From Diplonema papillatum (Eukaryota; Euglenozoa; Diplonemea; Diplonemida; Diplonemidae), in assembly GCA_030068145.1 (NCBI GenBank), contig JAPJBO010000903.1, positions 28,446 to 92,445 of the forward strand: 64,000 bases of DNA, in the 5' to 3' direction. Positions within the stretch are counted from its first letter, which is position 1, and each line of letters begins with the position of its first letter. Under the pieces are notes generated by a model. The model ran no database searches. It saw only the letters and a list, made by a program, of their open reading frames with translations, and was not told the DNA's origin. Made by a program: the position numbers and the translations under genes. Below are positions 15,369-64,000 of this stretch, in pieces.

Positions 15369-17200
15369 TTTTTTTTTTTTTTTTTTTTTGGAGCGCGGGA
15401 CACTGTACTAGCCTTGTTGGTACAGCGGGGCTGCCGGTATCCGGTTGCTTCCGGAGCGGTAGTCCAAAGAAATGCTTCTTCAGCACACAGTGAACGCCAC
15501 CTCACTGCGACCTGGGCTGGCCTGCATCTGAGTGCAGGTCCGACCAGGTAAAAAAACCCGCGATGCAGTGACTCTTCCCCCTGCATCAGGGTGGATTCGC
15601 TTCGTCCGGTCGCGCCCCACCAGATGCAATTACGATCCTCGCCACCCCTTGGGCTATAGAAAAGCTCAAGCGGTGGAAGAGGTCCTGGCAGGCGGCCGAA
15701 GCGGTCCGGTCTTCACGGAGGGCGTTCGCGCGGGCGATGTGCCGCAGCTCCGTGATTGCTCCTGGGCACCAGGCCCCGAACGTGTCTACAACTAGCGGCA
15801 CCGCTCGCCACTCCCGCGGGTCCGGCTCATTTGCGATGATCCTGTTGTAGACACGCTCCTTGACGGCAACAGCATACGCGGCTGCTGCGCCCCCTGGCTC
15901 CGCTGCGGCCCTGGTCGCGTAGTGGGGCTGCGAGAGCTGTAGGGGGTATGTGACTGCGACGTCAAGTAGGACGGTGGTGCCGTCCCGGACGTAGCTGATG
16001 TCCGGGCGCTTGCGCCGCGTGTTCGCGAACACGGCTCGCTCGATCGAGGGGCCCAGCAGCCCTCGACGTGCGAAGTCGGCGACAATGTCCCGAAGCGCGT
16101 TGTGCAGGCGCGTCCGGCGGCCGCTGCCGAAACACGTTTGGGCGTGCGAGCCGATGACGTCGGTCGCCCCGTGCCCGCAGAGGCGGCACTCCCCTGGCGC
16201 GGCCGCAATTGGCAGCCCCAGCCGAAGGCGTACTGCCACCGCCAGTTCGGCCGAGGACAACCACATCCCGGTATCCGCTTCCGGGTTGCCGTACAGCCAC
16301 GCCGAGGCGTGCTTGCCGGAGCTGCTTTGGATCCTCGCCCGGATCCGGTCTTGCGCCTGGGACAGGGCCGCTCCCTGCAGTTGGCTCGAGCGGGCGAGCT
16401 CCTCCGTTAGCAGGTCGAGGAGGTTCTTCCGCTTCTCGGTGGCCAAGGCGGACGACCACACCTTCTGTCCTCGCCCCTCGTACTGGGTCCGCGCCTGCAT
16501 GACGTCCTGGATCTTCTCCAGGACGGACTCATACGTTGCAAGGCGCGGGTCCGCGAGGGACGCTTGGACGGTGTCGTCCTGCTGCCACGTGAGGCGTGGC
16601 CCCAGGGCCTCGGACACGAGGGCGGGGAGATGCGTCCCCCCATCTAGTGCCGCCGCGATGTGCGCAATCCCTGTCACGTCTGCGCAGCTGTGGAGGCCGA
16701 GGCCACCCATCCTGACCGGGAGGGACGCTTGTGTCCACGCCGCCTCGTCGGTCTGTATCCCGGTGATAGTCGCGAGACAGGACTGGGTGGCCCGGTCGAC
16801 TCCCGCGAAGTCGAAGACGGACCCCGTCGCGCGCATGAGATGTACTACGCCGACGAAGCCCGCACAGAACTTCGTTAGCGTGAGCGCCACGTGCGCGTCG
16901 GGCAGGGACGCTATCATCCTCAGCTTCCTCTCCGCACCCTGTGCCGCCCGCTCGACGAACGCGTGGATCTTCTCTGGCGAGCCACACGGGACTCCCAGAT
17001 GCTCGATCTCGTCGAGCGAGCACGTCTCGATGCCTTGCAGGCCGTCGGGTATCTCCGCCCCCGCCGCGATCGCCAGTCTGCACTTGCCCCGGTTCAGGCG
17101 CAGTCCGACGGCCGCTGCCCGCCGCTCGTATCCCTGCAGCCAGCGCGCGATCGCGTCGAGGTCTCCGCCTGACACTCCATCGTCAAGGTAGAATGTCAGG
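15369..17200 (-). mobile_element. 5'-truncated LINE with restriction-like endonuclease
   Basis: On the minus strand the element begins inside RT motif C (FYLDDG), encodes the RT thumb and C-terminal endonuclease, and ends in a ~21-base poly(A) at 15,369-15,389. The 5' truncation and 3' poly(A) are typical of target-primed integration. Confidence 0.8.
15586..17197 (-). CDS. LINE RT C-terminus plus restriction-like endonuclease (partial)
   Basis: About 535 codons, open from the truncated 5' end to a stop at 15,586. It starts with FYLDDGVSGGDLDAI, the YxDD-type catalytic box. RT thumb-like helices follow. Near residue 335 there is a CCHC knuckle (CRLCGHGATDVIGSHAQTC). Then comes RRKRPDISYVRDGTTVLLDV, a PD-(D/E)xK-like core of the restriction-like endonuclease found in R2/NeSL/Utopia-type LINEs. 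That enzyme nicks the target to prime reverse transcription. No frameshift or stop interrupts the remaining part, so the insertion is fairly young. The clade assignment beyond restriction-like-endonuclease LINE is not resolved. Confidence 0.8.
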
Positions 17201-28389: not shown

Positions 28390-28835
28390 GGGTGAGCGGA
28401 AAAAAGTGTGCCGAGCACCGGATGACGCAGTGCACCACATGTAAGACGACAACGGAATGCTGTCGCAACCATCACCACCGATGTCTCGACCATGAGATGC
28501 CGACGTGCGACAGCTGCAAGAAACACGCCGACCTGAGGAGTAGGAGACGCGGGCACTGCTGCAGGAAAGGGCACCACCGGGCGGCCGTGGCGAGAGGAGA
28601 AGAATCAACGACGAAGAAGAGGAAAGCGGAGCCGGAGGGCCCCGCGTCAGCGCCGAGACAGGCGAAGCGTGAGAGCGTGGTGCTCGTTCTGCCGGAAGCA
28701 GCGGAAGGCGAGCGAGGACCCGCAACATCGACATCGACTTCAGCAGCGAAGGTCGGGAAGACGGCGCTTTCTTCGGGCTTCGGACCAGGAGACCCGACGG
28801 GGGCGTGGCTCTGTATTGGTGGCGCCTGGGCAGGT
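28390..28835 (+). pseudogene. LINE C-terminal fragment, Cys-His repeats and basic tail
   Basis: Encodes CAEHRMTQCTTCKTTTECC-RNHHH, then CLDHEMPTCDSCKK...HCCRKGHH, and a Lys/Arg-rich tail. These are the same CxxH-CxxC-CC-HH repeats as in the LINEs at 31,741 and 45,809. RT and upstream domains are missing. The fragment runs directly into an RT fragment of another class. Confidence 0.7.
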
Positions 28836-31740: not shown

Positions 31741-34540
31741 TTATCGGATGACGTCGTCACCTGCCATCGCGTCGTCAAGGTCGAGCATTTGTGGCGCTAG
31801 CGGGGTTTGGCTTTCTTGCGATTCCAAAGACTGAGTCGGCGAGTACGATGGCGGGCAGGAGTGCCCGTTTTCCACTTTCGAGGGCATTGGTGTGCCCGTG
31901 GTCCCCGGTCGTTTCTGAGAGCTGCTTGCCCTCGGTACCTTCTTCTTCCTTCGATGCACCCCTGAGTCGGGTGTGGTCGCCTTCGTCTTCTTCCGCTTGC
32001 GGCCGGCGATCGGGCCTTCCTTCGGGGTGCCGAGCACCCTCTTCTTCCGCGCTGGTCGTTCGCTGGTTCCTGGCGTTGGTGGCGGCCTCTTGGTTGCCCG
32101 TCCGGTCGACGCTGTTTCCTTTTTCGTTGCCGCGAGCGGCGCTCGCGCCGCTCGCTTTCCTACTGGCGTTTCCCGCTGTACACTCACCTGGGTGGGTGAG
32201 GAGGGCCTCTTCTTCTTGCTGCGTCCGGGGGTTGACTGGACGTTCGTCTTGTTGGACTGGTGGTGGCCGCGGCTGCAACATGCCGCCGGTCGCCTCTGCG
32301 TCAGCGTAGGGAGCCTTCTGCACTCTTGGCAGGTGGCTCTGCCATGCGTGCGGCAGGCATGATGCCCGCTGCGGCAACACGCCGCCGCCGTCTTGCACTC
32401 GCCGCACTTCGTCGTGCTGTGCTCTGTGCACACCGCGATCGGCTGCCCATCGTTCGCGTGGTGATGGTGCCGGCAGCACATCTCTACCGTGGGAACGTCC
32501 CTTCGGACGAGTGCTTTGCACGCCTCACACTTCCCTTTGTGATGGGTCGCGCATGTGACGAGTGCCTTCTCTTTTCCGACTCCCGGCATATGCACGGGGT
32601 CTGGGTGTAGTTGTGGTGGGGCAGGCAGGGCCCACCTCGCCGCTCTCCCGATCGTCCAGTCAGGGTACGTCGGGCACTGCGTCCCTACATCGCTTCCTTT
32701 CACTTGTTCCTCAAGTATCGTCCCCGTGTGTGCCTCGCGAAAGCGTGGCCTGGGCCGTATACCCGATATCCCCGTGATGCCCATGAACGACAGCGACGTC
32801 GTCGGGCACACCCTCTCTCCTCTCATGCAGCTTCCCAGCCCTTGCTGTGCCGCCAGCTTGTCCAACGCGCTCATCATGCAGCGCAGGACGTTTCCCCGTT
32901 CTCTCACCCCCTTCGGCGCATTCCCGTGCAGCGGCATGCTGAGGCCCGAGAAGAGTTCAAAGTCGATCGCAAGCTCCAGCATTGACGCCTGCCCGTTCTC
33001 GGTCCATTGCATGTCCGACAGCCACGCTACCAACGCATAAAACGTCGGTAGTCCCCAGGTCTTGTTCCGCTCCCACGTCCATGCCGGGGCAATCCGCGCG
33101 AAGGGGTGGTCAAATTTCTCGGCAGGCATCGCATTCGCTCTCGACCAGGGGGTCGTGGGGTTCCTGGCCACCCAGCCACGTGCTTCGAGCCCAGCCCGTT
33201 CCGCAAGGATTTCAGCCATCATCTCCTGGAGCCGCCTCGAGAATTGGGCATTCTCGGGTACTACCACACCGTGTTCCAGCGTGCATCTGGGCCAGTCGGC
33301 CCGGTTGGCTGCCATCAGCTCGGCATGTGCCTCTCGTCGCCGTATGTGCGAGTACGCTCCGCAGTCCCAGAATACGTGTTTCTCGTCCTCGGTGTCGCCG
33401 CTTCCACAGTGCTTGCAGCTGGGCGTCTGCGGCTCAGCTCCGGCCTGCCTCATCCGCGACGTGTACTCAGCCGTGTTCACACCCCCCGCCAACGCTACAC
33501 GTATTAGCCTCGCGGTGTGCGCGGGACATTCACGCATCCTCCAGAAGGTGTTCGTCCGCTCCAGGTCGGCTCTCTGTATGCCCTCAAATCCCGGCCGCCT
33601 CGCCACCAGTCGGGACCACGTCTTCGCCCTCAAGTCCGCCCTAACTTCATGTCCCCTCTTCGAAGGTGCCGAGGCTAACGGGTCATATGTTGCACCATTC
33701 CTCAGCGTGCGAGACAGGGGCCCGGGTCCCCATACGTGTCCACACTCCTCCATGCTCCTCATCGCCAGTCCAACTGGCCCCAGGGGTAGGTCCCCCTCGG
33801 CGTATCTTCCCCGGATGCTCTCCATCAGAGGCAGCAGTCGTGGCAACCTCTCGCACGCCGCGTAAAACGCTGTCGTCACCCTATATGCTAGGCATGTACC
33901 GGGATCCGTCAGGTGGCCCTTCTCCTGAAAGTTTAGGACCATCTCCCTCGCGCGCTTCGGGTTGGATCCACCCCAGATCAGTCCCATCACCGACGTCGTC
34001 AGCCGTTTCATCGCCACCTTCGATACCGGCGCGAAAGAGCAGCCTGACAGCGCCGCCGGTAGCACATTCGACTGCACAATCCGGACCCGCTTTTCGTACC
34101 GGAACGGCGCATGGCGGAGGCCTTCCGCCAGGGCAGCCGCCTTCTCCACCCTCTCCGAGTCGGACCTTTCCGTCCTATTCTTCGCCGTCGAGACTAGGAC
34201 CCCGAGGCACTTGACGGATTTGCTAAACCGCAGCAGCGCATCCACGCTGCGGAGTTTGAGAGTCGACTGATGCCTACGTCTCGTCGAGAACGCGACCGTC
34301 TTCTGGAGGTTTAGCTCCATCCCGGTGAGTGTGCAGAACTCGTCTACTACGTCCACTCCCTTTTGCAGGGCGGCCTCCGACAGCCTGGACAGCAGTGTGG
34401 CGTCGTCCGCGTATGACTTTGGACTCACACCCCCCGCTTCTTTCTTGACCGTTTTCATCACTACCGACAGCAGGGCATTGATGAGTATGACGGATACAGG
34501 GCACCCTTGAAGGATACCGTTGGTCACCTGAACTCCCTGC
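31741..34540 (-). pseudogene. LINE RT C-terminus with CCHC and Cys-His repeats
   Basis: After the frameshift: QVTNGILQGCPVS and PKSYADDATLLSRLSE (catalytic YADD), then thumb and connection. A knuckle follows: CKHCGSGDTEDEKHVFWDC. Then a conserved block SMLELAIDFELFSGL, with no RNase H motifs after it. Three repeats come next: CATHHKGKCEACK..CCRHHHH, CTEHSTTKCGECK..CCRSGHH, CRTHGRATCQECR..CCSRGHH. The tail is Lys/Arg-rich, and the end is DDAMAGDDVIR. The Cys-His repeats probably bind zinc and nucleic acid. Beyond the single deletion no other break was noticed. Confidence 0.85.
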
Positions 34541-35515
34541 CCACCCCTAATGGTAGCTTGAAGCGTCTCGCGAGCAGTCTGTAGATAGCCCTCAGCGGCT
34601 TGAGAACCCGATTGTGCAATCCTAAGTCCTCGGCTAAGCGCAGTACTATCTCTCGCGGGACCATGTCGAAGCATTTCCGGAAGTCCAGCGCCACACCGTA
34701 GAGCGGCTCCCCGTCTAACAAGGCGTCCTCCATCTCGAGCCCAATTTCCATCAAGACGTCCTCGATCCGGTGACCCGGTCGAAAGCCTTTCTGTCCTTCT
34801 TCGATCCATTCCTCTTGCCACAGAACTATGTCCGCCAGCCTGCGGCAGGCCCATAAGCGGTACACGGCGGATGTGACGGTTATCGGTCTTGTGTGCAGCG
34901 GGTCTTGACTCTCATCCTTCGGCACCATCGACACCAGCGCAGTTGTCATGCTTGCCGGCCAGTCTCCAGTTGCTTCGACCAGGTTCAAGACGTCTGCAAG
35001 TGCATTCAGCAGGGGGAGCGGCAACTCCCGCAGTTCAGCCATACGCCAGCCATCCACCCCTGACGCGCTTTTCTTCGGCTTCTTCCTCAGCAGAATTCGC
35101 AGCTCCTCCCCCGTGATTGTTCCGGCTTCCATCATATGTGGGCCGATGTGATCCCGGAACCGATCCCGAAACGGCTCGTACTCCGGCTCTGGCCCGTCCT
35201 TGTACTTACGCAGGATAGGGTCCCACGCAGTGTTCAGCACCTCGTCCATCTCGTCAACATTTGCAGTCACTCCCGCCCCCTTTCGCAACACCCCCGACGG
35301 TTCAGCGCGCCCGGCGCAGATGGTTGTCAGACATCGTCTGCTCGCAACGGCCCTCTCGTTCAGCTTGTCTCGGTATTTCGTAAACGTGGCCGCCGATCCC
35401 TCCTTTCCGAGCCTGCTCGTCTCTTCCCGCAATGCCGCGAGAAGCTGCTTCGCCTCCTCATGATCCGGGAATCCCTCTGTCCCTTGGCCATCTTTCATGC
35501 ACGCCTGTGCCGTTC
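34524..35515 (-). pseudogene. LINE reverse transcriptase, N-terminal half
   Basis: The frame begins at the truncation and contains the pre-RT linker (PSGVLRKGAGVTANVDEMDE) and RT motifs KKSASGVDGWRMAEL, TALVSMVPKDE, RPITVTSAVYRLWACRRL, EEGQKGFRPGHRIEDV and ALDFRKCFDMVPREI (first catalytic Asp). It ends prematurely at LGVGREFR. Comparison with the copy at 54,150 (TTCAGTGTGACC against TTCAGGTGACC) shows a one-base deletion near 34,530. The protein continues in the next frame (31,741-34,540). The 5' end is fused to the tail of another LINE copy, whose last codons are read in frame. Confidence 0.85.
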
Positions 35516-35985
35516 GTTTAGCATTGAGTTCTTTTAAGGACATGAACCACATGGATTAGCACGCACTGCCTCGATAGCCAGGTTATCGGATGACGTCGTC
35601 ACCTGCCATTGCGTCGTCAAGGTCGAGCATTTGTGGCGCTAGCGGAATTTGGCTTTCTTGCGATACCAAAGACTGAGTCGGCGAGTACGAGGGCGGGCAG
35701 GTGTGCCCGTTTTCCACTTTCGAGGGCATTGGTGTGCCCGTGGTCCCCGGTCGTTTCTGAGAGCTGCTTGCCCTCGGTACCTTCTTCTTCCTTCGACGCA
35801 CCCCCTGAGTCGGGTGTGGTCGCCTTCGTCTTCTTCCGCTTACGGCCGGCGATCGGGCCTTCCTTCGGGGTGCCGAGCACCCTCTTCTTCAGCGCTGGTC
35901 GTTCGCTGGTTCCTGGCGTTGGTGGCGGCCTCTTGGTCGCCCGTCCGGTTGGTTTAGCATTGAGTTCTTATAAGTACATGATCGT
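35516..35985 (-). mobile_element. Two stacked LINE 3'-end fragments
   Basis: A ~440-bp 3' fragment of the same LINE (basic tail, DDVIR stop at 35,583, tail to 35,516). Upstream of it is a ~40-bp bare tail (AAGAACTCAATGCTAAAC on the minus strand, ~35,950-35,985). The next copy (31,674-35,515) starts exactly where this tail ends. Confidence 0.8.
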
Positions 35986-36144
35986 TTAGCAGCGGCTGCC
36001 GAATCATGCCGTGGCACCGTCCCTTTGTGTGGTCTGCTTCGCAGAAGAAGTGAACAGGGAAAGGAGTCCAGACTCCGTGGGTTGAAACCATGTGGTATGG
36101 CTCCACTTCCTCCTCCCTTCGTCCGTTTTCTTCTTTTAAAAAAA

Positions 36145-36890
36145 GGGGGGCATGCAAGAACGTGCTTGGAATGGGTATGTGCTCAACACCGCACTGGTCC
36201 CGTCTGCGCCGTGTTTTGGTCCTTGAAGCCACGGACACATAAGGCGGACCATCATCAGCGCGGAACCTGAGTGTCTGCAGACAGGACTGCGGTGTGAGTC
36301 TGGTTTGTCGCCCGTCACAGCCAGGACCACCCGTGCTACTAGAGCACAGGCGAATCCGTCACGGGGAGAAGGCCCCTACAGCCGTGTCTGAGCAATCAGT
36401 TAAAAAACTCAGGGCACTCGCCCTGATTGTGACTGCGACTCGCTAGGCAGCACTGACTTGTCTTCTTTTTACGGTGGCAATCTGCGAAGTAAACTCCGCA
36501 GAGCACAGTGGACATGGGTTTGCCGTGTGCAGCACCAATGGTTGAAGTACCAAAAGGAAAAGAGTGCGAGGAAGTAATCCTGCGTGCTGAGGACAGCCAG
36601 TCGCGTTGCGCGAAGTACCCTACTTGGAATGGGTATGTGCTCAACACCGCACTGGTCCCGTCTGCGCCGTGTTTCGGTCCTTGAAGCCACGGACACATAA
36701 GGCGGACCATCATCAGCGCGGAACCTGAGTGTCTGCAGACAGGACTGCGGTGTGAGTCTGGTTTGTCAGGCGGCTGTTCGTAGCTCGTCACAGCAAGGAC
36801 CACCCGAGCTACTAGAGCACAGGCGAATCCGTCACGGGGAGAAGGCCCCTACAACCGTGTCTGAGCAATCAGTTAAAAAAAAAAGGGGGG
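36145..36890 (+). repeat. Repeat R10, third block
   Basis: About 1.5 copies of the ~498-bp unit. It ends GCAATCAGTTAAAAAAAAAA and a G run that lies only ~10 bases from the splice donor of J-protein exon 1. Confidence 0.85.
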
Positions 36891-36907
36891 GGAGGGGGAA
36901 CGCGTAC

Positions 36908-37228
36908 CATGAAGGGGTTCGACACGCCGAAGAACTTCTTGAAGATCTCGTCGGCGTTGCCGCTGAAGGTGTAGCCTCCCTTGTAGGAGCCTGCGCCGCC
37001 GTCCTTCAGGCCGCCCTCTCCGTAGTCGTCGTACCGGGCGCGCAACTTCGGGTCGCACAGCACTTCGTAAGCCTCGGTGACCAGCTCGAACGAAGCCCGG
37101 GTATCCTTGCCACTGTCCTTGTTCAGGTCGGGGTGGTACTTGAGCGCCATCTTGCGGAACCCTTTCGCAATGTCTTCGTTCTGCGCATCCCTGTTGATGC
37201 CGAGGATGTCATAGTAGCTGCCGTTCAT
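36908..37228 (-). CDS. DNAJB13-like J-protein, exon 1 (J domain, G/F region)
   Basis: 107 codons from ATG 37,228-37,226: MNGSYYDILGINRDAQNEDI, then KMALKYHPDLNKDS with the HPD triad at residues 32-34 that stimulates Hsp70 ATPase, helix IV, and a short Gly-rich segment. It ends FSGNADEIFKKFFGVSNPFM. The NADEIFKKFFG...NPF ending is typical of class-B J-proteins including DNAJB13. Human DNAJB13 lacks a canonical HPD, so an intact triad here is notable. The donor GTACGC is at 36,907-36,902, phase 0. The next recognised exon is at 13,603-13,978. An upstream ATG frame exists but runs into CACACA repeats, so the internal ATG is preferred. Confidence 0.88.
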
Positions 37229-45626: not shown

Positions 45627-45748
<122 letters not shown>

Positions 45749-45808: not shown

Positions 45809-46891
45809 CTAGGTAACGGCCGATGCACCCCCGGGCTGGGAGTGGGGGTCTCTGTTCGCTCTTCTGTTTGCATGGTGCTTCGGGCAGCAGCTGGCTAATG
45901 CTTCGTTTGCTACTACGCAATCGCCGCAGCGTCCTAGTCTGTGAGCTGTGCAAAAATGCATCCGCGGCCTTAGACCATCCGATCCGTGATGATGCTGCTT
46001 GAGGCGACAGCAGGTCTCCGCCGGTAGGCGATTCTTGACGCACTCCCTGCATCGCGGCTTTCTGTGATGCGAGCAAACCACTCCGGGGCGGGAGGTATTC
46101 ACCGCGCCTTCCGGGGCCTCGAACGGGGGGGCTCCTTCGCACGGTTCCGTGCTTGTGCTTCTTCCTGCCGCTTCTGCCTTCGCCTTCCAGTCCGGCTTTC
46201 CCTGCGTCCTCCCTGCCGGATAGGCCTCCTCTGGCAAAAAGGTTGCCGCCCATTCCAGGTGCGGAGGGAACAGGCTGTTTTCTTGCTGTTCTGGGCGATT
46301 TTCTCGCGTGTGTTCGCGTATCTTCATGATCACTTCCTCGGTCGCGGTCGACAACTGTGCACGCCTCGAAACACCCCGCACAACCGTTCCTCCCACAGAT
46401 GTCAAAACGGTGGTGGAGTATTCATGGCCGCAGAACCACGGCTGTGCAACCACCTTCCTATACGCCTTCCCCATTTCGATGAGGCTGAGCGCTTTTCCTA
46501 GACCGGACCGGCGGAAGTTTGCCAGCATGGTCTCTTGTTGCTGCCGGGTGGGCCTCTGGCATTGCACCAAGTCCATGGCGGCGTTACTCAGCGCGTCCGC
46601 GTCTGTGTTCAGCTCCCGCGCAACGTGCTCAATGTGCAGTGTCAGCCGTCTCTGCAGGGACGACACCTTCAAGGCCGCGCGCGTCAGATACGGCTTCAGT
46701 TCCTCTGAACATGCCATGCGTCGTGCGAGGTGCCCGACAACGAGCGCCGAGTCGCCTCGCACCGTGCATTCCTCTCTTTCCGCTTCGCCTGCATTCCTCA
46801 GCAGGTGCAGGCCCGCTAGCAGTCCTTCGTACTCTGCTACGTTGTTGCTGCGTACGGTCGGCAGTGGCAGGACCACTTCTGCCACTTTCAC
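45809..46891 (-). pseudogene. LINE RNase H remainder and Cys-His repeats
   Basis: Continues type-I RNase H: NNVAEYEGLLAGLHLL (Glu), CTVRGDSALVVGHLARRM (Asp), IEHVARELNTDADALSNAAM (Asp). The connector follows, then CSHHRKPRCREC...CCRLKQHHH and CTAHRLGRCGDC...CCPKHHA, the family Cys-His repeats, and a stop. RNase H would degrade the RNA of RNA-DNA hybrids during second-strand synthesis. All four acidic residues are present across the two frames. Confidence 0.85.
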
Positions 46892-47800
46892 TCCACTGCC
46901 CCCGCCCCGGCAACGGCGAAGGCGGTACCATTCGCTCTCGCCCCGCCATCGAAATAAACCAGGAGCCTGCTGTCTCCCATTTCCCGGGCCGGTAACGTTG
47001 CGCGGGCCGCTGTCGCCTTGCCGGTTGGTGCTTGTGGGAGGGCTGAGTAGTACCTACTCTTCAGGTCAGGGAGTCGCCGTCCAGTGTACAGCTCGAACTC
47101 CACTGCCAATTCGATGAAGCTGGTTCCCAGCTCGTCGTGCCCTGGGGGGGCCCACTTCGTCTGCTGCAGCCAGTCGGTGAATGCCAGCCACATCTCTTGG
47201 CCATATTTCCACTTCGTTTCGACGGCGGATGGTGCGATGGCAGGGACCGTGAGTCTGTGTGGTTCTGATGGCTTCCACCCGCGCGGGTAGTTCACGGTCC
47301 TGTGATGCCTGGTGGACTTGTCAAGCAGGCCGTCTGCTTCCTGACGTCGAGTTAGGACCTCGACGAAGAAAAGGTGTAGCCGCTTCAGAACACGCAACCT
47401 TTCTTCCCTAGCTGCCGGCAGCCCGGGGATCGCTTCGTCTCCTCGTACAGCTGGGGCCACCCCGCACAAGCGTAGGCACGGGGGCCAATTCCTTTGCACG
47501 TTCACCAAGTCTCCGTGCTTCGATCGAATTCGTTCCCAGGCTGGGCACGTCCAGAACAAGTGCTCTACCGTCTCCCGGTCCTGTGTGTCGCAGTACGGGC
47601 AGTTTCGTTCACCCAACCCCGTTCGCCCGGTTGCCGGTGTGGCTCCCGCAAGTACCGACTTGAGCATGCCGGCTTCGTACGCGGTGAGGGGGGAGTCCCG
47701 CATTTCTAGTAGGTGCCGGGTTGCCTGGTGGTCTACCCCATTCTGCACACCCCCGAAGTCCGCTGCTCGCCGCGCTGCGAGCTGAGCCATCTCACGCAGC
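46888..47800 (-). pseudogene. LINE C-terminal region, CCHC to start of RNase H
   Basis: Encodes LRLREMAQLAARRAADFGGV, a knuckle CPYCDTQDRETVEHLFWTC, the family block SFIELAVEFELYTGR and the first RNase H strand LLVYFDGGARANGTAFAVAG with its catalytic Asp. The frame is fused upstream to the (CA)n repeat. It stops at GAGAVE because of a one-base shift near 46,890; the rest of RNase H is in the next frame. Confidence 0.8.
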
Positions 47801-47802
47801 CT

Positions 47803-47966
<164 letters not shown>

Positions 47967-48006
47967 TGTGCGAGTTCATTTAGCGGTGTGATCAGATTCC
48001 AGTTTG

Positions 48007-50879: not shown

Positions 50880-53800
50880 AAATAGGTGTCACGGCAAGTT
50901 TTGGCAGCCGCTGCTAAACAAAATTTGAAGAGTGCGAAGCACCCCGGCAGAACGGGACGATGATGCGCACATGCTTCTGCGCTGCCCGCATCTGTGGTAC
51001 GTGCTACACGGCCGCAGGCAAGAAAGTGCAGGAAGTCCGGTGACTCGTGAACTCGACGCTGGTGTCACATGGGGCTGGTGAAGGCCAGCTCCATGTTGAC
51101 TTCGAGGCGGTCTGCTGGACCAGCCACGACCTCTCCGGTGCCCCTGCAACCGCGCCACCTGACGCGTCACTTAACCACCACGACCCGAAGACCTCGGAAC
51201 CAGCCGTCGCCTGCCTGGCGCCACTGCGATCTGCCCTGCCCTCGTTCGGGCTGCCGAGTCCTAGCACCCCTGCCAGGCAGTTCGATCACGCAGAGACGGA
51301 AAAAGAGAATTCCTGCTCCTCTTCTTTTCCCCTCCCTCTCTCTCACGGCGCGCCTGGCCTCAATCGCCCGGGAGCGATACCCCGAGGGACCGGTTTTGCG
51401 CACAAACAATCCCCCTACAATAGCCAGTGTGCCCGGCCAACTTGCAACGAGGGCCCCCCCGCCAGGGTGGAGGGACCCATCCCGGGGCTAAGTTTCCAGG
51501 CGATCCCTCGGGATCTTCTGGATAGACTGAGCCGAGCACCCGAGCTCAACCCGGAAGCCCAATGGGGAAGGCTGGGGGGTGGACGCAGCAGGGAAACCCA
51601 GCAGTGGGGGCACGCCTATCGACTAGGTGAACCCCCGATCAGACTGGAACGGGATATCCCCGAGGGGCCCCTGAAAGAAGCGGCGGATCTCATACGTGAC
51701 CGCCTTGGGTGGGAACCGGACCAGTTGCTGGCCAACTGGTACCGGAGGGGAGTGGGGATCAACCCCCACAAAGACCAGAGAGAACTGGGTCCGAGGGTAG
51801 CGACCATATCGCTCTTGAGCGACACGGTCATGGAATGGGAGAGGGGGAGCCGGAAAGTGAGAACCCCTCTGCCGGTCGGCACACTGTGCCACATGGAAGG
51901 CGAGGCCAGGAACCTGTGGACACACGGGATTCGTCCCGATGATGTCGCACGCGACCGGGTCTCGCTGACCTACAGGGCCGTGCGCGAGGCCGCCTCCCAA
52001 AGTTTGCAAGGCCGGGACACCCCGCAAGAAACTCCCATACCCCCCCCGCCCAGCCCTCAGGCATCCACTGCACCCCCCCAACATCAGTCCAGCCCCGCGC
52101 CACGGACACTTTTGCTTCATCACCAAAGAACTCTACAATCAATCAAAGAATCAGCAAGACAGCGGCTGATAACCGCGGGGGACGTCGAACAAAACCCTGG
52201 TCCCGGCCGCGCGGAGATGAGGTTCGCGACGTTAAACGTAACCAACCTACTACAGTATCTCCCAGCGGCCGACGCGGTGGAAGCGGATCTTCTCTGCTGC
52301 CAGGAGGTGACACTCCTTCCGTGCAAACGGGTGCAGGCGGAGGAATACCTGCGGAAATGGTGCTGCCACTGGGGTCTGCCACCACCCGGAAGACTCTGTA
52401 GGAACTCCGGTAGTCGCTCGACGATGAACGCCGCGAACGGAGGGCTCTCCACTCTAGTACTGAGACCGATACCGGCGTACGATACGATGACGGCGCTCTC
52501 GCACGCAGCAATACGGTCCCCGGACCGAGTGAGCCATACGGTAGTAGCAACAGGGGCCGGCAACACGTTCGTGCACGTGTTCAATGTCTACTGCCCTTCC
52601 GGAAACGGGAGGGCGGAGAGCGAGGAGCGTGAGGACATGCTGGAGAAGATCCTCTTCGCAGCGGCGGATAGCCTCGGTGACGTCCCCATAATGGTGATGG
52701 GTGACCTGAACACAGAAGAAGACCGGTCCCCTGTACTGCGGAAGGCACTAAGGAATGGGTGGTCCGACGCAGCGGAACTGCACCATGCGCGTACCGGTGA
52801 CACACCACCACCACCGACCTTTACTAGCGCCCGGACATCGGGCACGAGGATCGACCGCATACTCCTCAACCGAATAACGACGGGAGCTTTCCGCCAATGC
52901 GTCACCACCGCGGTGAACGTGCCGGGACACCGGCTCGTGACAATGACCCTGGACATTGCGGCGCTGCGCCAAATCGTGTGGCGATTTAAAGTACCGCGGG
53001 AAATCTCTACGGAGGGGGGACCCAAGTGGGGCCTCTCGGACACAGAAGCTTACAGGGAAGCCGTACAGAGACTGGCCAACTCCGATTTCGCAGAACGGCT
53101 GGCAGCACAGCGAGTGGAAGAGGCCTGGCTCGAGTGGTCACGAGTCAGTGAGCAGTACTTGCAGGATGCCTTCGGAATCCCTGCGGAAGAAAGGGGAAGA
53201 AGTACCGGCCGGGGATTAAAGACGTCACCTAAAAGAGTCTGCATCACGGCAAGCACTGCGAGCGACGGGTCGGGGGCGGCGAACAGCAGACAGCTACGGC
53301 TCCGGAAGGCCATCCACAGGATGGAACGCATCTGCAGCTACCTTGCGCAACGGCGCGGATGTCTGACAACCATCTGCGCCGGACGCGCTGAGCCGTCGGG
53401 GGTGTTGCGAAAGGGGGCGGGAGTGACTGCAAATGTTGACGAGATGGACGAGGTGCTGAACACTGCGTGGGACCCTATCCTGCGTAAGTACAAGGACGGG
53501 CCAGAGCCGGAGTACGAGCCGTTTCGGGATCGGTTCCGGGATCACATCGGCCCACATATGATGGAAGCCGGAACAATCACGGGGGAGGAGCTGCGAATGC
53601 TGCTGAGGAAGAAGCCGAAGAAAAGCGCGTCAGGGGTGGATGGCTGGCGTATGGCTGAACTGCGGGAGTTGCCGCTCCCCCTGCTGAATGCACTTGCAGA
53701 CGTCATGAACCTGGTCGAAGCAACTGGAGACTGGCCGGCAAGCATGACAACTGCGCTGGTGTCGATGGTGCCGAAGGATGAGAGTCAAGACCCGCTGCAC

Positions 53801-54188
53801 ACAAGACCGATAACCGTCACATCCGCCGTGTACCGCCTATGGGCCTGCCGCAGGCTGGCGGACATAGTACTATGGCAAGAGGAATGGATCGAAGAAGGAC
53901 AGAAAGGCTTTCGACCAGGTCACCGGATCGAGGACGTCTTGATGGAAATTGGGCTCGAGATGGAGGACGCCTTGTTAGACGGGGAGCCGCTCTACGGTGT
54001 GGCGCTGGACTTCCGGAAATGCTTCGACATGGTCCCACGAGAGATAGTACTGCGCTTAGCCGAGGACTTAGGATTGCACAATCGGGTTCTCAAGCCGCTG
54101 AGGGCTATCTACAGACTGCTCGCGAGACGCTTCAAGCTACCATTAGGGGTGGGCAGGGAGTTCAGTGTGACCAACGGTATCCGGCATC
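50880..54188 (+). mobile_element. AlkB-2A-APE-RT non-LTR retrotransposon, 3'-truncated
   Basis: A plus-strand LINE that carries the 5' half missing from the 31,674-35,515 copy. It is cut at 54,181-54,190, in the middle of RT, by a 127-bp satellite. Compared with the other copy it lacks ~100 codons before GCLTTICAGRAEPSG (near 53,355), an internal deletion. The 5' boundary is not defined; a Cys-containing frame lies just upstream (50,960-51,041). Confidence 0.85.
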
Positions 54189-54229
54189 TGAGTGAATTCA
54201 ATCCAATGAGATTCCTGAAAGTACTGTAA
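51047..54229 (+). CDS. LINE polyprotein: AlkB dioxygenase, 2A, APE endonuclease, RT
   Basis: One frame of 1,060 codons. Residues ~150-315 match AlkB: LANWYRRGVGINPHKDQREL with the HxD iron ligands at 241 and 243, ATISLLSDTVMEWERG, PVGTLCHMEGEARNLWTHGI with the second His at 293, and RVSLTYR with the 2-oxoglutarate Arg at 304/310. A 2A motif ends at Pro386. APE follows at once: MRFATLNVTNLLQYLP, LLCCQEVTLLP, VMGDLNTEED, SGTRIDRILLN, VPGHRLVTMTL. RT motifs run to RRFKLPLGVGREFSVTNGI; the last ~13 codons are satellite. The first codon is GTG and no ATG precedes the AlkB core, so translation start is unresolved. AlkB would demethylate nucleic acid, plausibly element RNA or cDNA; that role is inference. 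Confidence 0.88.
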   Translation: MNSTLVSHGAGEGQLHVDFEAVCWTSHDLSGAPATAPPDASLNHHDPKTSEPAVACLAPLRSALPSFGLPSPSTPARQFDHAETEKENSCSSSFPLPLSHGAPGLNRPGAIPRGTGFAHKQSPYNSQCARPTCNEGPPARVEGPIPGLSFQAIPRDLLDRLSRAPELNPEAQWGRLGGGRSRETQQWGHAYRLGEPPIRLERDIPEGPLKEAADLIRDRLGWEPDQLLANWYRRGVGINPHKDQRELGPRVATISLLSDTVMEWERGSRKVRTPLPVGTLCHMEGEARNLWTHGIRPDDVARDRVSLTYRAVREAASQSLQGRDTPQETPIPPPPSPQASTAPPQHQSSPAPRTLLLHHQRTLQSIKESARQRLITAGDVEQNPGPGRAEMRFATLNVTNLLQYLPAADAVEADLLCCQEVTLLPCKRVQAEEYLRKWCCHWGLPPPGRLCRNSGSRSTMNAANGGLSTLVLRPIPAYDTMTALSHAAIRSPDRVSHTVVATGAGNTFVHVFNVYCPSGNGRAESEEREDMLEKILFAAADSLGDVPIMVMGDLNTEEDRSPVLRKALRNGWSDAAELHHARTGDTPPPPTFTSARTSGTRIDRILLNRITTGAFRQCVTTAVNVPGHRLVTMTLDIAALRQIVWRFKVPREISTEGGPKWGLSDTEAYREAVQRLANSDFAERLAAQRVEEAWLEWSRVSEQYLQDAFGIPAEERGRSTGRGLKTSPKRVCITASTASDGSGAANSRQLRLRKAIHRMERICSYLAQRRGCLTTICAGRAEPSGVLRKGAGVTANVDEMDEVLNTAWDPILRKYKDGPEPEYEPFRDRFRDHIGPHMMEAGTITGEELRMLLRKKPKKSASGVDGWRMAELRELPLPLLNALADVMNLVEATGDWPASMTTALVSMVPKDESQDPLHTRPITVTSAVYRLWACRRLADIVLWQEEWIEEGQKGFRPGHRIEDVLMEIGLEMEDALLDGEPLYGVALDFRKCFDMVPREIVLRLAEDLGLHNRVLKPLRAIYRLLARRFKLPLGVGREFSVTNGIRHLSEFNPMRFLKVL
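52151..52204 (+). other. 2A ribosome-skipping sequence
   Basis: Residues ~369-386, ending ITAGDVEQNPGP. This fits the D-V/I-E-x-N-P-G-P consensus exactly. Skipping between Gly and Pro would release an AlkB protein of ~385 residues and a second product starting Pro-Gly-Arg, five residues before the APE domain. 2A sequences are known in trypanosome and echinoderm non-LTR retrotransposons. Confidence 0.9.
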
Positions 54230-54715
54230 TGTCATCAGGCGCGCAATAATGAAATCCGTAGACAGGAACCCCTAAACACCACCCAAAAAACACGTGTCAG
54301 TGGAGTTTGCCGTTACACGAGTGAGTTCAATCCAATGAGATTCCTGAAAGTACTGTAATATCATCAGGCGCGTGCAACAATGAAATCCCAAAACGCCACT
54401 CAAAAAAAAAAACACGTGTCAGTGGAGTTTGCCGTTACATGAGTGAGTTCAATCCAATGAGATTCCTGAAAGTACTGTAATGTCATCAGGCGAAATAATG
54501 GAATCCGTGGACAGGAACCCCTAAACACCACCCAAAAAATACGTGTCAGTGGAGTATGCCGTTACATGAGTGAATTCAATCCAATGAGATTCCTGAAAGT
54601 ACTGTAATATCATCAGGCACGTAATAATGAAATCCGCGGACAGGAACCCCTAAACGCCACCCAAAAAACACGAGTCAGTGGAGTTTGCCGTTACATGAGT
54701 GAATTCAATCCAATG
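54190..54715. repeat. ~127-bp tandem satellite, four units
   Basis: GTGA(A/G)TTCAATCCAATGAGA starts near 54,192, 54,321, 54,443, 54,570 and 54,699. Each unit includes CACGTGTCAGTGGAGT. Confidence 0.9.
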
Positions 54716-55811: not shown

Positions 55812-56690
55812 CTCACTCCCTCAATGCGGGAGTGGGACCCCGTCAATGAGGGAGTGGCACTCCCTCAATGCGGGAGTGACACTCCCACAATGCGGGTGTG
55901 GCACTCCCGCATTGTGGCCCCTCAATGCGGGAGTGGCACTCCCCCATTGAGGAAGTGGCACTCCCTCAATGCGGGAGTGGGACCCCCTCATTGAGGGAGT
56001 GGCACTCCCTCAATGCGGAAGTGGCCCTTCCTCAATGCGGGAGTGGCCCTTCCTCAATGCGGGAGAGGCACTTCCTCAATGCGGGAGTGGGACCCTCTCA
56101 ATGCGGGAGTGGGACCCCCTCAATGAGGGAGTGGGACCCCCTCAATGCGGGAGTGGGACCCCCTCAATGAGGGAGTGGGACTCCCTCATTGCGGGAGTGG
56201 GACCCCCTCATTGAGGGAGTGGGACTCCCTCAATGCGGGAGTGGCACTCCCTCAATGCGGGAGTGGCATTCCCTCAATGCGGGAGTGGCACTCCCTCAAT
56301 GCGGAAGTGGCCTTTTCTCAATGCGGGAGTGGCCCTTCCTCAATGCGGAAGTGGCCCTTCCTCAATGCGGGAGTGGGACCCCCTCAATGAGGGAGTGGGA
56401 CCCCCTCAATGAGGGAGTGGGACTCCCTCAATGCGGGAGTGGCACTCCCTCAATGCGGGAGTGCCACTCCCTCAATGCGGAAGTGGCCCTTCCTCAATGC
56501 GGGAGTGGCCCTTCCTCAATGCGGAAGTGGCCCTTCCTCAATGCGGGAGTGGCACTCCCTCAATGCGGGAGTGGGACCCCCTCAATGAGGGAGTGGAACT
56601 CCCTCATTGCGGGAGTGGGACCCCCTCATTGCGGGAGTGGGACCCCCTCATTGAGGGAGTGGCACTTCCGCACGTTTTCACTCCCGCATT
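55812..56690. repeat. 22-bp palindromic minisatellite, ~40 units
   Basis: Unit CTCAATGCGGGAGTGGCACTCC, with GGACCCC, CCCTTC and AATGAGG variants. GGGAGTGGCACTCCC is self-complementary. The unit has no stop codon in any of the plus-strand frames, so long frames here are artefacts. Confidence 0.95.
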
Positions 56691-62644: not shown

Positions 62645-64000
62645 CTCAGGGAAGTCGAAGGCCTGACAATCACACTAATGCAACAAATTCTGTGTCGGGG
62701 GCACAGATTGGACCCGCGTGTCGCCGCGATTCATCGGCGGGTGAACACGTTTTCGCAGCAGATGGTGAAGCAGTCGCACTTTTGGCACCGCTGGTGTGTT
62801 GCCATCCGAGCAGTGCAGCAAGCAAGGCGGGACCGCCCCCCCGGCGCTCCAGAGGCACCGGGGCAAAGCAAGGAGGGGCCAGTGTTCCTGCTCGAGCAAG
62901 CGATCACGGACATCGGATGGACGTGACCCAGATTCGACCCCCTGCAGGAAGGAACGGGCTGACGGCGCGAATGGACGGTGGTGCAGAACGTCGAGCCGCT
63001 GACGAAAGAGGAGAGGCAGCGGGCGCAGACCGCTCGGCACAACTTCCAGCACGAGCTACGGGAGGCCGGGCGGACGATGCGCTACAAGGAGGTGGTCAAG
63101 ACGAGGGCATCCCTCCTCGGCATCGAGGACGGCATCGACGGGGGCGCCACGCGAGACCTGCTGGAGAAGGGCGCCATCACCGGCTATCAGCAGGGCCTGG
63201 TCAGAGCTGTCATTGCCAACGCGGTACACACCGGCAAGCGATGGGAGCAAGCAACCTGCAGATTCTGCGACACTGGTGTCCCGGAGGACGAACAACACAT
63301 GTGGTGGGACTGCGTCAAGTGGAGCGACGTGCGCGGCGCGTATCCGAATGTGCTCGCTCGGCGGCCCGAGATGAAGCCGTATGCGGCGTCATGCCCAAGG
63401 ACACGATGCGACTTTGACGAATGCAGGGAGCTGGCGGCCGGGATGCAGCTGATGTGCGTCGAGATCCTGCTCGGGAGGCAGCGGGCCGACGGGATCCTCG
63501 AGCAGGACTGCCGGCGCAAGGAGCTCAAGGTGTCGACATATCCGTGGGGGTGGGAGCCGCAACGGCCGACGGCCAGCCAGACCATCAACGTCGACGGTGC
63601 GCGGCCGGACCGCAACGCATGGAAGGACACCCACGAGATGCTCCTGGCGCTGGCAGAATGGTGCTCGACGAAGCGGTGGTCCGAAACCGGCAAGGAGGCC
63701 TCCATCTCGTATTTCGAGCTCGCTGTCGATTTTGAGCTGCACAGCGGCCTGACCCTCACGCCGGCCGGCACACAGCGGAGGCAGGAGAACATCGCGCAGC
63801 GGCAGCCGAAGGAGCGCTGGACCGTGGCGGACACGCTGCCGGGAGAGGAGACGGCGGCGTTCTTCGACGGCGGCAGTCGGGGGAACGGGACCAACGGCGC
63901 GGTCGCGGGAGCCGGGGCGGTCTTCTACGACAAAGGCGTCAAGCAGTGGGAAGTTGAGAAGCCCATCGCCGGGAGAGCGACGAACAACGTGGCGGAATAC
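62645..64000 (+). mobile_element. LINE fragment with RNase H, runs off the window
   Basis: A plus-strand, 5'-truncated relative of the 45,809 LINE. The first part (ILCRGHRLDPRVAAIHRRVN, 62,645-62,928) is in another frame, so there is at least one break before 62,963. Confidence 0.75.
62963..64000 (+). CDS. LINE C-terminal protein: CCHC knuckle and RNase H (partial)
   Basis: Open to the window edge without a stop (346 codons). It reads RREWTVVQNVEPLTKEERQR, a helical linker, the knuckle CRFCDTGVPEDEQHMWWDC, the family block SYFELAVDFELHSGL, and RNase H beginning TAAFFDGGSRGNGTNGAVAG and TNNVAEY at the end, giving the first Asp and the Glu. The Cys-His repeats expected downstream would lie outside the window. 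No RT is present upstream. The frame is intact here, so the copy may be younger than the one at 45,809. Confidence 0.8.

Follow-up and report, generated by a model that had tools for sequence, protein, structure and literature searches.

We examined a 64,000-nt stretch of the genome of the diplonemid Diplonema papillatum (GenBank assembly GCA_030068145.1, contig JAPJBO010000903.1, positions 28,446 to 92,445 of the forward strand; hereafter the window). It holds a copy of a long interspersed nuclear element (LINE), a retrotransposon without long terminal repeats (LTRs), in which an AlkB-type dioxygenase domain shares one open reading frame (ORF) with an apurinic/apyrimidinic-type endonuclease (APE) and a reverse transcriptase (RT). 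Comparison of copies across the genome supports AlkB as a conserved and selected part of the long copies of this APE-type LINE family. At the level of sequence, the comparisons establish the order of the element, purifying selection on AlkB, an intact active site, a high number of copies with nearly identical ones among them and, for a good share of these, a 5' start at a spliced leader. As anatomy the AlkB LINE is real, unusual and well supported. The explanation that we favour, and hold to be somewhat probable, is that an APE-type LINE captured an ALKBH8-like AlkB between ORF1 and the endonuclease-RT, that it makes AlkB as a read-through fusion to ORF1 with release by a 2A motif, and that AlkB acts on the element's own nucleic acid.

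The initial annotation of the window, made from the letters alone, had read this locus as a non-LTR retrotransposon carrying AlkB, with NPHKD, WTHGI and RVSLTYR in one frame in AlkB-like order and spacing, followed by APE and RT. This reading held in each respect. Its functional suggestion, that AlkB might erase m6A or m1A or repair the template, is contradicted by none of our results. The three motifs start at amino acids (aa) 240, 292 and 305 of an open frame at 51044-54229 (+), which encodes AlkB, then a 2A motif, the endonuclease and the start of the RT. Pfam profiles, applied with their curated cut-offs, matched 2OG-FeII_Oxy_2 (PF13532, E 2.7e-12, 47.7 bits against a cut-off of 31.2) and Exo_endo_phos (PF03372, E 5.4e-9, 36.6 bits against 24.5), so that the AlkB call has a significant profile match behind it. 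RVT_1 matched under its cut-off (E 1.5e-4, 22.0 bits against 29.6) and over model positions 7-106 of 205 only. The NCBIfam profile search gave no match above cut-off. The parts of the element in the window are:

50927..51040, +, C-terminal, Cys-rich tail of ORF1 (EECEAPRQNG...), 38 codons in the same frame that match the end of ORF1 in loci L002-L004; the sole ORF1 remnant in this copy
51041..51043, +, in-frame TGA with CTC after it, which putatively separates ORF1 from ORF2 as a read-through stop; TGA-CTN as in 43 of 48 unique loci
51044..51472, +, linker from UGA to AlkB, without an in-frame ATG in this copy
51473..52006, +, AlkB-type Fe(II)/2-oxoglutarate (2OG) dioxygenase domain (Pfam core 51689-51976), called from PF13532, the Protein Data Bank (PDB) match and the motif positions
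51767, 51773, 51923, 51956 and 51974, +, AlkB active-site residues H242, D244, H294, R305 and R311
52181..52204, +, 2A (stop-go) motif DVEQNPGP inside RQRLITAGDVEQNPGP, consensus D(V/I)ExNPGP, between AlkB and APE
52244..52873, +, APE-type endonuclease domain (PF03372, E 5.4e-9)
53359..53360, +, in-frame loss of 77 residues present in the related protein P0001, seen as a split match
53795..54112, +, N-terminal part of the RT (RVT_1, E 1.5e-4); the YADD motif of P0001 is lost here
54189..54715, +, 129-bp tandem repeat, 4.2 copies, in place of the remaining RT; its first unit gives the last in-frame codons and the stop
31741..35543, -, second copy, 5'-truncated, RT with YADD and a C-terminal Cys-rich region, without AlkB match, frame broken near 34535; the 3' end of the element is visible in it
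35586..35949, -, piece from the 3' part of another copy, arranged head to tail with the second

The AlkB-bearing copy is dead. It has lost the greater part of ORF1, 77 inner residues and the remainder of the RT, which ends at about 54188. The second copy is 98% identical to aa 767-1040 of the window ORF and 89-90% identical to P0001 in two frames. Neither copy alone shows whether AlkB belongs to the element, and we therefore examined the rest of the genome.

Genome-wide searches were made in the D. papillatum assembly from which the window comes (271 Mb; the genome was published as about 280 Mb, PMC10161547). With the window ORF as query, 43 places were scored of 3645 candidates, and all 43 span AlkB through APE; this search scores the best candidates first, so 43 is a minimum and says nothing about a fraction. 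With the AlkB domain as query, the best 150 of 327 candidates were scored, all with E < 1e-100. They fall into identity tiers of about 96-100%, 90-91% and 84%, and at 83 of the 150 the open frame is 1980 aa or longer. The HxD, H, R..R motif is intact in every one of 48 unique LINE loci (L001-L062 less 14 repeats). A search with APE found a listed AlkB within 1.5 kb upstream at 103 of 150 scored places (of 1506 candidates). AlkB is listed upstream at 63 of the 64 APE places with frames of at least 1900 aa, and at 7 of the 34 with frames of 1580-1899 aa. The same fusion is thus present in other copies across the genome. Among the 19 loci of subfamily 2 (171 pairs), identity over 1940 nt is 99.2-100%, with a mean of 99.7%, so that the family must have been active recently; the corresponding figure for subfamily 1, 90.9% on average (range 63.9-100% over 28 pairs), was computed without gaps and is spoiled by insertions and deletions.

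The 2A motif gave a further count of linkage. The DVExNPGP pattern occurs 246 times genome-wide (143+103), compared with 0+0 for the reversed pattern, and 85 of 100 listed sites carry the family's codons. A listed AlkB lies 188-711 nt upstream at 63 of these 85 family sites, at 0 of the 15 other listed 2A sites and at 6 of 17000 shifted positions.

Some of these counts weigh against the explanation that we favour. There are 22 listed family 2A sites of the 85 without a listed AlkB upstream, the AlkB list being limited in length, and 47 of the 150 scored APE places likewise lack one; the frames at the latter are mostly shorter and of many lengths. Four AlkB-less APE copies share a frame length of exactly 1856 aa. 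These four (C17:638092, C311:232650, C690:70370 and C1028:7283) have 100% identity and no listed AlkB; they may stem from duplication of one truncated copy or represent a variant that lacks AlkB. The varied lengths of the other short frames are the pattern expected from 5' truncation, which is also seen in the second window copy. Partial AlkBs can escape the AlkB listing: C269:187417, counted among the AlkB-less places, retains the AlkB end.

We estimated selection on AlkB from the ratio of replacement to silent substitution rates (dN/dS) by the NG86 method. The ratio for AlkB was 0.28 between the window copy and the 91% subfamily (dS 0.17) and 0.23 between the window copy and the 84% subfamily (dS 0.42). 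It was 0.33 against the AlkB of a second element type described below (the OTU-RT copy, dS 0.52) and 0.22 between two Helitron AlkBs (dS 1.2). Across copies, values of 0.2-0.3 between subfamilies indicate purifying selection. Between subfamilies 1 and 2, AlkB shows 4-6 replacement and 0-1 silent changes, counts too small to interpret. The truncated 84% copy L080 gave 0.62 against L061. The linker from UGA to AlkB is less constrained (0.5-0.8), and ORF1 gave 0.3-0.7, with dS near saturation in distant pairs.

Full copies read spliced leader, ORF1, in-frame UGA, AlkB, 2A, APE, RT. ORF1 is open for at least 490 aa in the loci that reach that far, has a Cys-rich end and lies in the same frame as ORF2, with a single TGA at its end; no Pfam family scored above cut-off in the three ORF1s tried. 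In 43 of the 48 unique loci the junction reads TGA-CT(C/A/G) with ORF1 in phase. Of the five exceptions, two (L047 and L048) are truncated within ORF2, two (L049 and L051) are frame-shifted, and L034 runs into the contig end. The stop is in view in 47 loci, and 44 of these have no in-frame ATG from there to the HxD motif; an ATG occurs in L061 (codon 32), in L010 (codon 5) and, within flanking sequence, in L047 (codon 30). ORF1 identity is 29-39% in most compared pairs and reaches 81% when subfamily 2 is set against the 91% subfamily, compared with 83-98% for AlkB. This suggests that modules were swapped while the phase and the TGA were kept. For example, L007 and L013 have ORF1s that are 33% identical and AlkBs that are 98% identical without a silent change; judging from these identities, this contrast is a recent module exchange between subfamilies.

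The simplest reading of the TGA junction is stop-codon read-through, which makes it a candidate for programmed read-through in a LINE. AlkB would then probably be made as an ORF1 read-through fusion and be separated from APE-RT by the 2A. To our knowledge, the order ORF1-UGA-AlkB-2A-pol is unusual as a LINE expression strategy. Reinitiation without an AUG appears less likely. Two points speak for caution about read-through. L061 (84% subfamily) and L010 have an AUG at which translation could restart, and the RNA downstream of the UGA lacks a consistently strong fold (z -2.3, -0.5, -2.0, -1.9 and -0.1). Reinitiation has been described for the LINEs SART1 and L1 (PMC5972666).

A full copy, L064 (~1120-1157; C7:503420-503456), begins with ACCAACGATTTAAAAGCTACAGTTTCTGTACTTTATTG, which we take to be the Diplonema spliced leader. 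This 37-mer leader occurs 517 times in the genome. Linkage was counted with 100 listed leader sites, complete for contigs C1-C371. Among these sites, the leader lies 2.2-3.1 kb upstream on the same strand at 19 of 77 LINE AlkB places; in the control directions (downstream or on the opposite strand, within 4 kb) it was found at 0 of 77. A leader upstream of ORF1 suggests that these copies were made from a trans-spliced mRNA containing ORF1, UGA and ORF2. We searched the 5' ends of L006, L029, L063 and L064 for a ribozyme like that of hepatitis delta virus or any other Rfam RNA, and found nothing at E <= 1 except a piece resembling large-subunit (LSU) ribosomal RNA (rRNA) in L006. An Rfam scan of the window gave nothing at gathering threshold.

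The insertions share a repeated target. The left flank GGCARCCGCTGCTAAACG recurs, in a longer form 282 times in the genome, as does the right flank ACGTGGGCGG, and the target reads GCTGCTAAACG..ACGTGGGCGG. In the window it is found at 50903-50919 and at about 35984-36000 (-), with insertions head to tail. There are 110 unoccupied joined target sites in the genome, some of them 5.85 kb apart. The LSU rRNA-like stretch of L006 lies upstream of the target (E 2.2e-5, below the gathering threshold); the LSU match is absent in window positions 35000-37200. The target is probably derived from 28S rRNA, putatively near the 28S 3' end.

Within the LINEs, the element is of the APE type: APE is N-terminal to RT in one frame, and the RT is complete in P0001 (RVT_1 E 1.6e-19). 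R1-type elements are 28S-specific APE LINEs. The D. papillatum family resembles them in its APE, its repeated specific target and its head-to-tail copies, and differs in the target sequence, GCTGCTAAACG..ACGTGGGCGG, which lies putatively near the 28S 3' end. We know of no AlkB in the L1Tc/ingi elements of trypanosomes, and the ingi/L1Tc clade has an RNase H domain, which Pfam does not find in P0001. The likeness to L1Tc/ingi is that these are LINEs of Euglenozoa with a 2A, which is functional there (PMC4981915).

A protein search with the RT gave 87 matches, mostly proteins from D. papillatum, transcriptomes and metagenomes. Among the 87 were a single named Symbiodinium protein and neither a named reference LINE nor a named ingi. 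The RT tree, built from the 82 of 88 proteins with long enough matches, gave long-branch warnings and was used for the sister family only. The nearest other LINE family has an RT about 61% identical (P0016-P0024), and in P0016 a 2A stands at the very start. At the one sister locus read (L086), no AlkB was found by profile in the ~0.67 kb upstream of the 2A. This suggests that AlkB was gained in the AlkB branch or lost in the sister family. An element-AlkB profile matched none of the other 88 of 94 proteins, a weak result because gene models, P0001 included, begin after the 2A.

To place the AlkB domain among known families, we compared it with solved structures and with host proteins. Its best PDB match is human ALKBH8 (E 3.1e-7). 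An AlphaFold model of the domain (mean pLDDT 54.9 from 4 sequences) is weak and gives soft support only; its top Foldseek match is human ABH8, with no match at E <= 0.001. The AlkB tree comprised 18 AlkBs, with nine element-type rows (all but L079 from an assigned element). These nine, two host ALKBH8-like proteins and one AlkB-methyltransferase protein form a 12-row clade (support 92/87, below the starred level), outside which the six other host AlkBs fall. The two host proteins have ALKBH8 as their own best PDB match (E 2.9e-22 and 1.3e-23). The nine element-type rows group together at 78/93, also below the starred level. In the best tree the AlkBs of the LINE and of the OTU-RT element are not one clade, which speaks against simple readings of their history; a single clade is not rejected (approximately unbiased test, p-AU 0.33). 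ALKBH8 is a tRNA wobble-uridine hydroxylase and not an eraser of N6-methyladenosine (m6A). The LINE AlkB is like ALKBH8 in that ALKBH8 is its nearest solved structure by sequence and in that it lies on the same side of the tree as the host ALKBH8-like proteins. It differs in that human ALKBH8 has an RNA recognition motif (RRM) and a methyltransferase beside AlkB, and Pfam finds neither in the window ORF; AlkB and a methyltransferase are both present in the D. papillatum protein P0008. Three points here count against the explanation that we favour: the affinity to ALKBH8 points to tRNA as much as to mRNA, its tree support stays under the starred level, and the alternative grouping of element AlkBs with host_L075 and host_L076 was only just not rejected (p-AU 0.055).

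Related AlkBs occur in other mobile elements of the genome. On contig C641 (L069/L083/L085, C641:600-7400), an AlkB 75% identical to the window AlkB shares a frame of 2322 aa with C2H2-like motifs, an OTU-like domain and an RT (RVT_1 E 1.3e-22), in that order. The OTU-like domain (E 0.0036, and 5.2e-4 in P0005) and the C2H2-like motifs are under cut-off. By identity, at least 22 places carry an AlkB of the OTU-RT type, the longest frame reaching 4088 aa; C641 alone was read downstream. On C65 (L066/L081, C65:452300-456900) and C930 (L068/L082, C930:65700-70600), an AlkB 41-42% identical to that of the window is in one frame with Helitron_like_N (PF14214, E 2.4e-38 and 3.6e-39). At least eight places carry a Helitron-type AlkB by identity, two of them read downstream, and the Helitron AlkB also has ALKBH8 as its best PDB match (E 6.1e-9). 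The HxD, H, R..R residues are kept in both kinds of relatives, which are 41-75% identical to the window AlkB. These results suggest that mobile elements repeatedly picked up AlkB as a tool.

Outside the assembly, a protein search found eight proteins, seven from D. papillatum (63-93% identity) and one weak metagenome match (36%, E 6.9e-5). The AlkB region found five proteins only, all from D. papillatum, in a database of 5.8 billion sequences; this search was word-limited and covered lengths of 0.55-1.75 times the query. In one scan of viral contigs, 10 stretches matched a pattern and none of them encoded a relative. The database proteins P0003 and P0005 are named tRNA methyltransferase and are AlkB-transposon proteins or close kin. 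In P0004 and P0014 the gene models join AlkB or RT pieces to other proteins. By eye, P0007 has a CCHC/restriction-like end and a tyrosine-recombinase-like start.

In the mechanism that we favour, some ribosomes would pass the UGA in its UGA-CUN context and make ORF1-AlkB, and the 2A would free APE-RT as a separate protein. ORF1 would bring AlkB into the element's RNA particle. There, and here our expectation is less sure, AlkB may remove methyl groups by oxidation from the element's template RNA or from its first-strand cDNA, and copying would then not be stopped by host marks or by methyls that block the RT. Its role would resemble that of the AlkBs in orchid Gypsy elements and in AlkB-bearing RNA viruses. 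A point against this mechanism is that AlkB is also found in Helitrons, which have no RNA intermediate, so a role tied to reverse transcription alone may be too narrow.

The Helitrons speak for a mark encountered by every parasite of this kind, be it on mRNA or on single-stranded DNA. A wider explanation, tentative at best, is that three unrelated classes of mobile element (the LINE, the OTU-RT element and the Helitrons) might share one ALKBH8-like dioxygenase as a portable defence against a mark that the host sets on nucleic acid, the LINE expressing it by UGA read-through. The spliced-leader cap is one candidate target, as many long copies begin with the leader, and cap methyls would otherwise halt reverse transcription short of the 5' end. 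In trypanosomes the cap has N6,N6-dimethyl-A and N3-methyl-U (PMC11417388). Counting against the cap, 81 of the 100 listed leader sites have no linked listed LINE AlkB within 4 kb downstream; some are surely leader genes, and elements without AlkB may copy the leader too.

Somewhat less plausible is that AlkB acts on DNA, where it would clear a host mark such as N6-methyladenine (6mA), or lesions, from element DNA. LINE first-strand cDNA and the rolling-circle intermediates of Helitrons are both single-stranded DNA, and at two loci a related AlkB is in frame with the Helitron Rep. Yet ALKBH8, the nearest named relative, is an RNA enzyme, and fusion to ORF1, an RNA-binding protein in other LINEs, favours RNA. 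The usual substrates of AlkB do not include 5-methylcytosine (5mC). Homologues of 5mC DNA methyltransferases, which lend the DNA explanation some support, have been described in D. papillatum (PMC10161547).

We regard it as unlikely that AlkB simply repairs a chemically alkylated RNA template (N1-methyladenosine or N3-methylcytidine). Template repair has been proposed for the AlkB of plant RNA viruses. The intact Fe/2OG residues and the purifying selection fit repair, and the Gypsy AlkB offers a precedent (PMC9289625), but this explanation overlaps strongly with the one that we favour.

Slightly more doubtful again is an action like that of ALKBH8 itself, in which AlkB would modify the wobble uridine of tRNA and alter decoding, perhaps raising UGA read-through and so the element's own expression. 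ALKBH8 supports UGA recoding and the element seems UGA-dependent; the PDB matches of the LINE and Helitron AlkBs and the clade with host ALKBH8-like proteins described above agree with such a role. The lack of the RRM and methyltransferase domains in the window ORF argues against it, as do the Helitron and OTU-RT AlkBs, which share one open frame with their downstream domains and need no read-through between them. That AlkB is kept as an RNA-binding or structural module whose chemistry is irrelevant is very improbable: AlkB proteins do bind nucleic acid, which lends no direct support, and the active-site residues are retained in 48 of 48 LINE loci and in the Helitron and OTU-RT relatives. Finally, the window copy is broken at both ends, as a one-off chimera or assembly artefact might be, but a chimera or a chance match is ruled out by the significant profile and by recurrence throughout the genome (AlkB scored at 150 places, which span three or more identity tiers; AlkB at 63 of 64 long-frame APE places).

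Elsewhere in the window, 47068-47805 (-), 45851-46195 (-), 63050-63781 (+), 28407-28580 (+) and 15619-16269 (-) resemble C-terminal regions of P0001 or P0007. A 22-bp minisatellite, CCCTCAATGCGGGAGTGGCACT, occupies 55814-56666 (~34 copies from 55919), and long GT runs lie at 45630-45747 and 47805-47970.

AlkB domains occur in plant RNA viruses. There, as in the LINE, AlkB lies within a replication polyprotein of a parasite; host and element class differ. Closer to our case, Gypsy elements of Phalaenopsis orchids have been reported to bear an ALKBH5-like ORF with m6A RNA demethylase activity in vitro (PMC9289625), and are thus retroelements with an AlkB-type domain. As described there, they are LTR elements with a separate ORF, whereas the AlkB of the D. 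papillatum LINE is ALKBH8-like and belongs to the pol frame, where it follows a UGA and precedes a 2A. The presence of 2A in LINEs was already known (PMC4981915). The accessible text of the D. papillatum genome paper describes a dozen AlkB homologues and, separately, many transposable elements including Helitrons, and does not link the two (PMC10161547). A literature search of titles and abstract openings, with most subscription journals outside its scope, returned no report of AlkB in LINEs or Helitrons. A retroelement with a captured AlkB was known before.

The AlkB homologues reported for D. papillatum (PMC10161547) may include transposon genes, as the proteins P0003 and P0005 illustrate. 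An AlkB under selection in a high-copy LINE, and present in an OTU-RT element and in Helitrons, would mean that, in a major group of marine protists, mobile elements are affected by a chemical mark of the host. The AlkB-bearing elements would then offer a genetic handle for finding that mark.

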